From assembly GCA_022599575.1 (NCBI GenBank), contig JAHZMA010000032.1, forward strand, positions 1 through 45,844: DNA of 45,844 bases, written 5' to 3'. Below the pieces are notes generated by a model that made no database searches, was not told where the DNA came from, and saw only the letters and a program-made list of their open reading frames with translations. Each line of letters opens with the position of its first letter. Within the stretch, counting starts at the first letter, position 1. The translations under genes and the position numbers were made by a program. The stretch comes from Alphaproteobacteria bacterium (GTDB taxonomy: Bacteria; Pseudomonadota; Alphaproteobacteria; JABAAW01; JAHZMA01). Below, in pieces: positions 1,861 to 5,669 of the stretch.

Positions 1861-2535
1861 ATGAATCAGGCAAAATTACACGCGACTATTTTCACTCTAT
1901 TCCCTGAAATGTTTCCCGGCACATTAGGCACGGCGATTCATGGGCGCGCGCTTGCCAATAAGATTTGGAATTATAACATTGTTAATTTGCGCGATTTTTC
2001 CAATCGGCATGATGGCCGCGTTGACGACCGCCCCTATGGCGGTGGCGCAGGCATGGTGATTCGCCCCGATGTGATTGATGATGCCCTCACCCAACATGTG
2101 CCAGCATCAGCCCCTGAAACAGCATCATTGCCGACTATCATTTATTTCAGTGCCAGTGGCACACAATTTAATGCTGAAATGGCACAAACTTACGCGCAAT
2201 ATCAGCATCTTTATTTGATTGCAGGGCGTTATGAAGGCATTGACCAGCGCGTGATTGAAAAATGGCAAATGCGTGAAATTTGTATTGGCCCTTATGTTTT
2301 ATCGGGTGGGGAATTGCCCGTGCAGGTATTTTTAGATGCGGTGTTACGCTTTGTGCCTGATGTGTTAGGCAATCCAGAATCGCTAGATGAGGAGAGTTTC
2401 TCGGATAATTTTACCGGTGAATATCCGCATTATACGCGTCCACAAATATGGCAAAACCGCGCTGTGCCTGATGTTTTGGTCAATGGCAACCATCAAAAAA
2501 TCACCGAATGGCGCAAAAATAATAGCAAGAAGTAA
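1861..2535 (+). CDS. trmD: tRNA (guanine-N1-)-methyltransferase TrmD
   Basis: Methylates G37 next to the anticodon of several tRNAs using S-adenosylmethionine, which prevents frameshifting. The trefoil-knot SAM site is clear: YGGGAGMVIRPDV near residue 60, LIAGRYEGIDQRV, and GPYVLSGGELPVQVFLDAV. The C-terminal tRNA-binding part has YPHYTRPQIW and VLVNGNHQKITEWR. The 224 residues end soon after that motif, slightly shorter than many family members, but no motif is missing. The start codon follows rimM by 9 bases. The next gene in related genomes is rplS; here an unrelated nuclease-like gene intervenes. Confidence 0.97.
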   Translation: MNQAKLHATIFTLFPEMFPGTLGTAIHGRALANKIWNYNIVNLRDFSNRHDGRVDDRPYGGGAGMVIRPDVIDDALTQHVPASAPETASLPTIIYFSASGTQFNAEMAQTYAQYQHLYLIAGRYEGIDQRVIEKWQMREICIGPYVLSGGELPVQVFLDAVLRFVPDVLGNPESLDEESFSDNFTGEYPHYTRPQIWQNRAVPDVLVNGNHQKITEWRKNNSKK

Positions 2536-2694: not shown

Positions 2695-3504
2695 ATGGGC
2701 TTCTTTAATAAAAATACTGGTATTCAGTTTGTTACAACAGCGAATATGAATCATTATATTCAGGAAGAGTTTAGAAAAGCAAAAAAATTTATTTTGATAC
2801 TATCACCCTATATTCAATTAAATGAAAAAATTTCTTATATATTGGCTGAACAGATAAAAAAAGGTGTAAAGGTAACAATTATTTATCGAGAAAATGAAAA
2901 TAATTATCCCATTGATATCGAATGCGACATTGTTAATCGCCCTACCTTACATGCCAAATGTTATATAACCGAAAATATGGCTTTGGTTGCAAGTTTAAAT
3001 CTTTATGAATATAGCCAAAAAAATAATGATGAAATGGGTTTTATTGTTTTTAAAGAACAAGAAAAAGCAATTTATGCAGAGATATTTGAAGAAGCAAAAA
3101 GGTTGCAGGATAATAAAAATTCAACATCTGACGGCAATAAATACTCACTTACTAAAGGACAAAATTATCCGTTAGACCACTTAAATACGATTTTTGATTT
3201 TAACTACAAAAAACCATCAGGGATAAAGTTATGTGAAAAACATAATTGTATTGTTTTGTTTTCCAATAAATATTCATCATATGATAATGAGAAAAAATCT
3301 GATGTTATTTTATATGAGGGGCAAAATACAGGAAGCGATGAACAAAAATTAATTTACGGTAACAAAGAATTACATGATGCATATCATGTTTCACCAAAAG
3401 ATATTTTATATTTCTATAATTATGACTATCAAGGTCTTATGCAATTTGCAAAAAAACCCTATCAAAAAGATGGTAAGTGGCTATTTCCTATTAAAAAGCA
3501 ATAG
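2695..3504 (+). CDS. Predicted modification-dependent nuclease: phospholipase-D-like domain fused to an SRA-like domain
   Basis: The 269-residue protein has two parts. Residues 1-140 look like a single phospholipase-D (HKD) nuclease half: strand FILILSPYI, then LHAKCYI with H86 and K88, followed by LVASLNLYEYSQKNNDEMG (S100, N102, N110, E113). One HKD copy implies a homodimer. Residues about 155-269 resemble the SRA/YDG fold of modified-cytosine readers: IVLFSNKYSSYDNE, VILYEGQNTGSDEQKL, YGNKELHDA and, near the end, YDYQGLMQF plus DGKWLFPIKK, in the order of SRA proteins (sugar/base-flipping region, Q-K-L, N-x-x-L, YDG strand). A good GGAG site precedes the ATG. The gene is more A+T-rich than its neighbours and separates trmD from rplS, which suggests transfer. 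The PLD part is firm; the SRA call and the restriction role are inference. Confidence 0.75.
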   Translation: MGFFNKNTGIQFVTTANMNHYIQEEFRKAKKFILILSPYIQLNEKISYILAEQIKKGVKVTIIYRENENNYPIDIECDIVNRPTLHAKCYITENMALVASLNLYEYSQKNNDEMGFIVFKEQEKAIYAEIFEEAKRLQDNKNSTSDGNKYSLTKGQNYPLDHLNTIFDFNYKKPSGIKLCEKHNCIVLFSNKYSSYDNEKKSDVILYEGQNTGSDEQKLIYGNKELHDAYHVSPKDILYFYNYDYQGLMQFAKKPYQKDGKWLFPIKKQ

Positions 3505-3635
3505 CAAATACACCTCCGCTCACCTTGTCCCCCCTCTTGATAATCCCCCACTATACTCAATATTAGAATCGTGCGTATTCAGACTACCCGACACAAAGAT
3601 GTGGCAATCTCCGATTGTCATCAGCATCTCATTCG

Positions 3636-4266: not shown

Positions 4267-5669
4267 TGGCACAGACATTATTTGATAAAATCTGGCAAAA
4301 CCACCTTATCCATACCCAAACCGATGGCACAGCGATTCTGTATATCGACCGCCATTTGGTGCATGAAGTTACCTCACCACAAGCATTCGAAGGCTTACGC
4401 AAAAGCGGACGTAAATTGCGTCGCCCCGAAGCCACTTTGGCGGTTGCCGATCATAACGTGCCCACCAGCAAGGGGCGTGGTAATGGCATTGAAGATGAGG
4501 CCAGCCGTATCCAAGTGGAAACGCTTGAAAAAAATTGTCGCGATTTTAACGTTGAATATTTTGATATGAGCGATATCAGGCAAGGCATTGTGCATATTAT
4601 AGGACCAGAACAAGGCTTCACCCTACCGGGCATGACGATTGTGTGTGGTGATTCGCATACCTCAACCCATGGCGCATTTGGTGCATTGGCATTTGGTATT
4701 GGCACATCGGAAGTAGAACATGTGCTTGCCACGCAAAGCCTGCGTCAAAGCCGTGCCAAAAACATGAAAGTAGAAGTGAGTGGCACATTGCCGATTGGCG
4801 TTACCGCAAAAGATATCGTGCTTGCCATTATCGGCAAAATCGGCACTGCTGGTGGCAATGGGCATGTGATTGAATATTGTGGCGATGCGATAACGGCACT
4901 CTCGATGGAAGGGCGTATGACTGTGTGTAACATGACGATTGAAGCAGGTGCGCGCGCAGGCTTAATCGCCCCTGATGACACCACTTTTGCCTATCTTAAA
5001 GATAAAAAATTAGCACCAAAAGGCGCAGATTGGGATAAGGCAGTCGCCTATTGGCAAACATTGCCAAGCGATGCAGATGCCCATTATGATAAAGAAATCA
5101 CCTTAGATGCTGCTGATATTGCACCGATTGTTAGTTGGGGCACATCACCTGAAAATGTGGTGCCGATTACTGGCAAAGTGCCATCTCTTGATATGTTTGA
5201 AACCGAACATCAGCGCAATGCGATTAAACGCGCACTTGATTATATGGGTTTGCAAGAAGGCATGAAAATGCAGGATATTACGATTGACCGTGTATTTATC
5301 GGTTCTTGCACCAATGGCAGAATTGAAGATTTGCGCGAGGCGGCAAAAATCGCCAAAGGCAAAAAAGTTGCGACCACTGTAAGTGCAATGGTGGTGCCAG
5401 GGTCAGGATTGGTGAAACAGCAAGCCGAACAAGAAGGGCTTGATAAGATTTTCATCGATGCTGGTTTTGATTGGCGCGAACCCGGTTGTTCTATGTGTTT
5501 GGCAATGAATGCCGATAAATTGGAAGCAGGCGAGCGATGCGCTTCAACCTCTAACCGTAATTTTGAAGGCAGGCAAGGGCGCGGTGGGCGCACCCATCTG
5601 ATGAGTCCTGCGATGGCGGCAAGCGCGGCAATTACTGGGCATCTCACCGATGTGCGCGAGGTGCAGTAA
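4266..5669 (+). CDS. leuC: 3-isopropylmalate dehydratase large subunit
   Basis: Aconitase-family [4Fe-4S] enzyme that, with LeuD, isomerises 2- to 3-isopropylmalate in leucine synthesis. Signature segments: [19 protein letters not shown] near residue 130, [25 protein letters not shown] with the first cluster cysteine, and [10 protein letters not shown] with the other two. The 467 residues are the normal bacterial length. The ATG overlaps the last base of the rplS stop. leuD begins one base after the leuC stop, and leuB follows, giving a leuCDB unit behind the ribosomal genes as in many alphaproteobacteria. Confidence 0.98.

Follow-up and report, generated by a model that had tools for sequence, protein, structure and literature searches.

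The window analysed here, a stretch of 45,844 nucleotides from an alphaproteobacterial contig (JAHZMA010000032.1), carries an unexpected open reading frame between trmD and rplS, and the question raised by this locus is what the product of that frame does and how the gene came to lie there. A first-pass annotation had read it as a PLD nuclease fused to an SRA-like reader of modified bases, and had proposed a compact, horizontally acquired restriction enzyme directed against modified DNA. The features at the site are:

1861..2535, + strand: trmD, the left flank (Pfam tRNA_m1G_MT, E=2e-42)
2695..3504, + strand: PLD-SRA gene of 269 codons with ATG start and no internal stop, matched by homologues over aa 6-269
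3536..3576, + strand: one copy, in the right spacer, of a dispersed repeat of ~40 nt that matches 23 further sites of the genome
3790..4266, + strand: rplS, the right flank (Pfam Ribosomal_L19, E=1e-49)

The identity of both flanks and the intact frame between them are confirmed, and the site is as unusual as had been claimed, since the gap between trmD and rplS is 1258 nt in the window as against 56-359 nt in relatives (26 of the 26 that have both genes on the stretch). The GC content of the PLD-SRA frame is 27.3%, compared with 42.3% for the whole window, and its GC3 is 21%, compared with 43% for trmD and 35% for rplS. No match to the gene has been found among the 96 relatives searched, the closest of which belong only to the same taxonomic order. 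A housekeeping gene is rejected on the basis of this absence and of an insertion seen in this genome alone among those compared. Promoter or terminator signals around the gene do not rise above chance.

The repeat in the right spacer reads CCCCCTCTTGATAATCCCCC... and, as it also occurs at 23 other sites of the genome, that piece of the spacer is considered to be local and to lie outside the PLD-SRA gene.

Homologues were sought in 84,980 species genomes with a profile derived from aligned proteins that share the PLD part. Six whole-length matches have been identified (L110-L115, 33-39% identity); the full-length homologues are recovered with the profile of the family in which the PLD domain is followed by a winged helix (PLD-wH), and when genome and viral contigs were scanned with a single sequence no match was obtained. 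A search with an SRA profile in one family has added five intact PLD-SRA proteins as well as broken ones, and beyond the window ten apparently intact full-length proteins are known from this analysis (34-41% identity). Full-length frames are thus encoded at eleven loci (the window, L110, L111, L113, L114, L115, L306, L309, L310, L311 and L312). Three further copies are partial or broken (L112, L307, L308), of which L112 is interrupted by an in-frame stop (5274-5276) and L308 by an apparent frameshift, and 3' remnants are present in L313, L314 and contig C92 of the window genome. The broken copies and remnants point to frequent loss of the gene. Rather than occupying conserved housekeeping positions, the homologues show a patchy occurrence, mainly in Desulfovibrionaceae, where the SRA part is encoded in 14 of 288 genomes, and one of them lies in a locus with methyltransferase, McrBC and integrase genes. 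The form with SRA has not been found in the viruses or plasmids searched, viral contigs included. Composition, phyletic patchiness and the widened gap together support the horizontal acquisition of the window gene.

Standalone SRA-like proteins of ~140 aa are encoded at L316 and L317 (frame from ~1432-1453), with no nuclease domain in the same frame.

The remnant on C92 (C92:43069-43182, L003 7065-7179) comprises 115 nt that are 90% identical to the 3' end of the window gene. It lies directly behind two unrelated frames, one of 294 aa and the other encoding a likely membrane protein of 180 aa, neither of which has a Pfam match, and the site is possibly a defence site at which a cassette has been replaced. 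With a second copy reduced to this extent, with L112 and L308 broken and with L114 devoid of the catalytic lysine, the window gene could itself be a recent acquisition that is non-functional or decaying and whose product no longer cuts. The window frame is however intact with all catalytic positions in place, and most of its changes with respect to the remnant are synonymous (away from the ends, 7 of 9 differing codons), which suggests that both copies were under protein-level selection before one was lost. A dead or dying window gene is accordingly considered very improbable.

The product of the gene is comprised of two domains, the first of which is a nuclease. Its organisation is as follows:

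2722..3108, + strand: PLD (HKD) nuclease domain, ~aa 10-138 (PLDc_2, E=8e-11; Foldseek matches NucT, Nuc and Zucchini)
2950..2973, + strand: catalytic motif H86xK88x4E93, assigned from sequence and from conservation in PLD-SRA copies
2992..3000, + strand: S100xN102, the second HKD part, invariant in the copies that cover these positions
3109..3144, + strand: flexible linker, ~aa 139-150 (pLDDT <50 at aa 141-148)
3145..3501, + strand: predicted SRA reader domain, aa 151-269 (AlphaFold2, Foldseek and hhalign to the SRA-HNH family)

The catalytic residues of the nuclease domain (H86, K88, E93, S100 and N102) are intact. H86 is retained in all 12 PLD-SRA copies that cover the position and K88 in 11 of 12, the exception being the otherwise intact frame of Desulfovibrio piger (L114, 995-1843), which has Ala in place of the catalytic Lys (HAA, not HAK). 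The positions recognised in the first-pass annotation (H86, K88, S100, N102 and E113) are all sound, but the acidic residue of the motif is more plausibly E93 than E113. E113 is likewise invariant in the alignment; E93 is preferred because HxKx4E is identical to the motif H119xKx4E reported for SauUSI (PMC7913695). The AlphaFold2 model of the whole protein, obtained from an alignment of 7 sequences, has a mean pLDDT of 83.8, with both halves confident and aa 141-148 disordered. Searched with Foldseek, the PLD part of this model matches NucT, Nuc and Zucchini, and the full model also matches ScoMcrA and SauUSI (7clg).

The C-terminal domain modelled by itself has a pLDDT of 91.5 and a pTM of 0.85. 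Ranks 1-24 of its Foldseek matches in the PDB are SRA domains without exception, with TMq up to 0.77; SUVH5 (0.74-0.76) and SUVH6 (0.77) are accompanied by ScoMcrA, UHRF1, SauUSI (7clg, E=0.0096 with the SRA-only model), TagI, MspJI and UHRF2. A YTH or EVE reader is rejected on the basis of the fold, since YTH matches are at noise level (E>=0.38) and EVE is absent among the matches listed, which also contain no B3-like fold of the BfiI type.

As independent evidence from sequence, profile comparison of the C-terminal domain with the SRA domains of SRA-HNH proteins gave E=2e-17 across the entire domain (hhalign), and reciprocal HMM searches agree with this link between the two readers. The SRA-HNH family is in turn tied to classical SRA domains (E=4e-6) and to SAD_SRA (6.7e-4). 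When the profile is compared directly with two classical SRA domains the similarity is weak (E=0.05); the link to them passes through the SRA-HNH family and the structure. Loci with HNH_2, gathered as candidate relatives of the SRA-HNH type, mostly lack the SRA signature. Single-sequence scans (Pfam, NCBIfam, PADLOC, PDB sequences) detect the PLD part only, or SRA below threshold; as SAD_SRA stays sub-threshold in the Pfam scan (E=0.02-0.05), the first-pass annotation spotted a feature that a standard scan would miss. The elements on which it relied (YEGQ, DEQKL, GNKEL, YDYQG, KWLFP) are real and are conserved in homologues as YxGQNTG, QkLxYGNKxL and GxWxFPLK. The predicted structure and the profile similarity to bacterial SRA-HNH proteins thus support the assignment of the C-terminal half as an SRA domain. 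The window protein has no HNH domain in Pfam, a PLD domain being present instead, and no Pfam match to DUF3427, which is the Pfam name for the C-terminal domain of SauUSI (PMC3874153); a weak DUF3427 match (E=8e-4) is found in a relative, L287, from the SRA-HNH family.

The residues expected to surround the base have been located in this domain:

3280..3288, + strand: pocket residues Y196, an aromatic wall, and N198, in the position of the SRA pocket Asp (alignment columns)
3313..3315, + strand: pocket residue Y207, the second aromatic wall, equivalent to TagI Tyr67 (spacing as in TagI)

Both walls are aromatic in 14 of 14 PLD-SRA copies. The column of the pocket Asp has Asn in 13 of these 14 copies and Leu in the remaining one (L113), whereas related SRA domains mostly have Asp there (8 of 10), and the window protein, with N198, lacks the acidic pocket residue. 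Such a residue (Asp in UHRF1 and TagI, Glu in UHRF2) is typical of cytosine readers and is not a universal need. This Asp-to-Asn difference is an addition beyond the earlier finding. In TagI the pocket is walled by Tyr55 and Tyr67 and Asp58 bonds the flipped base, and the authors hold its carboxylate to be the reason why modified C is preferred to modified T (PMC6212794). N198 aligns with Asp58, and its spacing of 9 residues from Y207 equals that of Asp58 from Tyr67 in TagI.

The conserved change might, going by the alignment, alter the target base. With the same architecture and the same role in defence, a pocket retuned from Asp to Asn could read modified thymine or uracil, such as 5-hydroxymethyluracil or hypermodified T. 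Asn could nevertheless still bond cytosine, one PLD-SRA member has Leu, and Asn is also present in one of the related SRA-like proteins that stand alone. A thymine or uracil reader is rated as unlikely, and equally unlikely is the wider view that PLD-SRA proteins may form a separate single-gene restriction class with the first SRA reader of a base other than cytosine. The change does allow one to ask directly whether a single residue sets the modified base that an SRA domain accepts. It is also known that an SRA domain may be inactive as a reader, as exemplified by HHPV4I (PMC10101028).

The methyltransferases of the carrier genomes bear on the same choice. No match to the C5-methyltransferase profile (PF00145) has been found in the window genome, and the profile search found none in the genomes of L111, L112, L114 and L115. 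Those of L110 and L113, two of the six homologue genomes searched, encode several each. As the profile finds a match in 10 of 14 controls, its lack of one in 5 of 7 carriers hints at an incompatibility with 5mC, and would be expected for a cytosine reader. In the two exceptional genomes a generic 5mC cutter would attack the host, so that a sequence context, or a mark other than 5mC, would be required there; the two exceptions favour the thymine or uracil reader to that extent.

The surroundings of these two homologues have also been analysed. L110 is preceded by genes for two methyltransferases (first an EcoRI-type, then a D12 enzyme), by an unknown gene and by those for an McrB-like AAA ATPase and McrC, with an integrase downstream, and this locus is counted in favour of a role in restriction. 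L113 comes after fabF in a fatty-acid operon, and the next gene behind it is transposase-like as judged from sequence.

The same PLD domain is associated with other C-terminal regions in most of the sampled loci, where it is followed by a winged helix (L004, L005, L007 and most of L116-L189). A winged-helix reader of this kind is rejected for the window protein, as its C-terminus is an SRA domain. Another class has a Cys-rich, zinc-ribbon-like end (FCIRC...CYxxW...HCHxCG; L116, L119, L127, L130, L138, L141) and occurs in archaea, Dehalococcoidia, Lysobacterales and others. Filamentous phages of Vibrio (f237-like inoviruses) widely carry the winged-helix form as an accessory gene (L004 7547-8257, L005 7111-7821, L009 9122-9832, L010-L067) that is annotated as 'DNA repair protein' or hypothetical, and in phage vB_Vipa71 it adjoins a gene annotated as an ATP-dependent endonuclease. 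These genes may represent phage-borne restriction dependent on N6-methyladenine. Conjugative plasmids of enterobacteria also carry the winged-helix form. The phage and plasmid matches, which extend up to aa 215, were rejected as whole-protein homologues because only the PLD domain is shared and the C-terminus is a winged helix.

This wide occurrence admits a different function, in which the protein would be a DNA-processing or repair nuclease, with the SRA domain as an arm that binds DNA or lesions in general, while the PLD domain trims DNA ends. Hundreds of genomes, and filamentous phages too, encode the PLD domain with winged-helix or Cys-rich ends and under annotations of DNA repair or phospholipase D, and its chromosomal retention seems to hold in some lineages (many Psychrobacter species). 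The PLD-SRA form is on the contrary rare, patchy and often decayed, one copy lies in a locus with McrBC and methyltransferases, and SRA-type readers in bacteria otherwise belong to restriction enzymes. A repair nuclease is considered quite unlikely on these grounds.

It is probable that this single gene encodes a compact type IV restriction endonuclease, dependent on modification and independent of ATP, with the full mechanism set out here. The SRA matches to SauUSI, ScoMcrA, TagI and MspJI are to readers of restriction enzymes and are counted in its favour, as is the decay of PLD-SRA genes (L112, L308, L313, L314, C92), which fits a costly defence gene. Counted against it are the Asn in 13 of 14 pockets, the missing catalytic Lys of L114, the several C5-methyltransferases in two carrier genomes, the precedent of HHPV4I for an SRA domain inactive as a reader, and the fact that most genes with this PLD domain have other C-termini and no proven function. 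By analogy with SauUSI, BfiI, Nuc and TagI in respect of dimerisation, chemistry, base flipping, cleavage and role in defence, the SRA domain would flip a modified base from duplex DNA into the pocket walled by Y196 and Y207, and the flexibly tethered PLD domain, with one HKD motif per chain, would pair with a second copy to form an active site. Cutting would take place near the mark through a covalent phospho-histidine (H86) and without metal. Modified phage or plasmid DNA would thus be cut on invasion, and host DNA, being without the mark, would be spared. As no ATPase is present, translocation is not expected, unlike in SauUSI. If active, the protein would probably read and cut with 269 aa and with no need of metal or ATP. 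It would then help to explain how SauUSI functions when there is no translocation, and could serve as a small tool in the mapping of modified bases.

Several known systems share parts of this organisation. BfiI resembles the window protein in having a single-HKD PLD nuclease and one DNA-recognition domain. The recognition domain of BfiI is B3-like and reads unmodified sequence. PLD-EVE fusions combine PLD with a reader of the PUA superfamily and have a predicted role in restriction, the reader being EVE and not SRA (PMC7641849). The PLD-wH candidates Aba4572I and CbaI also have PLD with a single C-terminal modification reader, which unlike the window SRA is a winged helix for N6-methyladenine, and in two further PLD-wH proteins the reported motif is HxDx4K/HxEx4K (PMC11037411). 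PvuRts1I and AbaSI share with the window protein the two-domain, NTP-independent order of N-terminal nuclease and C-terminal SRA (PMC12707154), but their nuclease is PD-(D/E)XK and not PLD, and their specificity for 5hmC/g5hmC is established. The SRA-HNH proteins (TagI, ScoMcrA and related plasmid HNH proteins) have a homologous SRA domain in a two-domain, NTP-independent layout as in the window; their nuclease is a C-terminal HNH, in contrast to the N-terminal PLD of the window protein, and most of them keep the pocket Asp.

A review of 2025 on host-dependent restriction describes SRA in two-domain fusions with nucleases of the PD-QxK, PD-(D/E)XK and HNH types, and treats SauUSI as the variation in which PLD, ATPase and SRA are combined (PMC12707154). 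No description of a helicase-free PLD-SRA protein has been found in the reviews and papers searched, the coverage of which is incomplete, and an earlier description is possible. The kinship with PLD and SRA restriction enzymes proposed at the outset is supported, and SauUSI, more than BfiI, is the closest precedent on account of the shared PLD motif and the SRA reader. SauUSI, an ATP-dependent type IV restriction enzyme of Staphylococcus aureus with 953 residues (PMC7913695), combines an N-terminal PLD domain with HxKx4E and a C-terminal SRA target-recognition domain in one polypeptide, a layout also predicted for the window protein. It has in addition an SF2 helicase-like ATPase and a coupler in the middle of the protein, a region reduced to a short linker in the window protein, and it differs in the pocket, where Asn replaces Asp in the window protein. 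PLD-SRA is most likely in effect SauUSI minus the helicase, and a PLD domain joined straight to SRA without an ATPase fills a gap among the combinations known for modification-dependent restriction enzymes.
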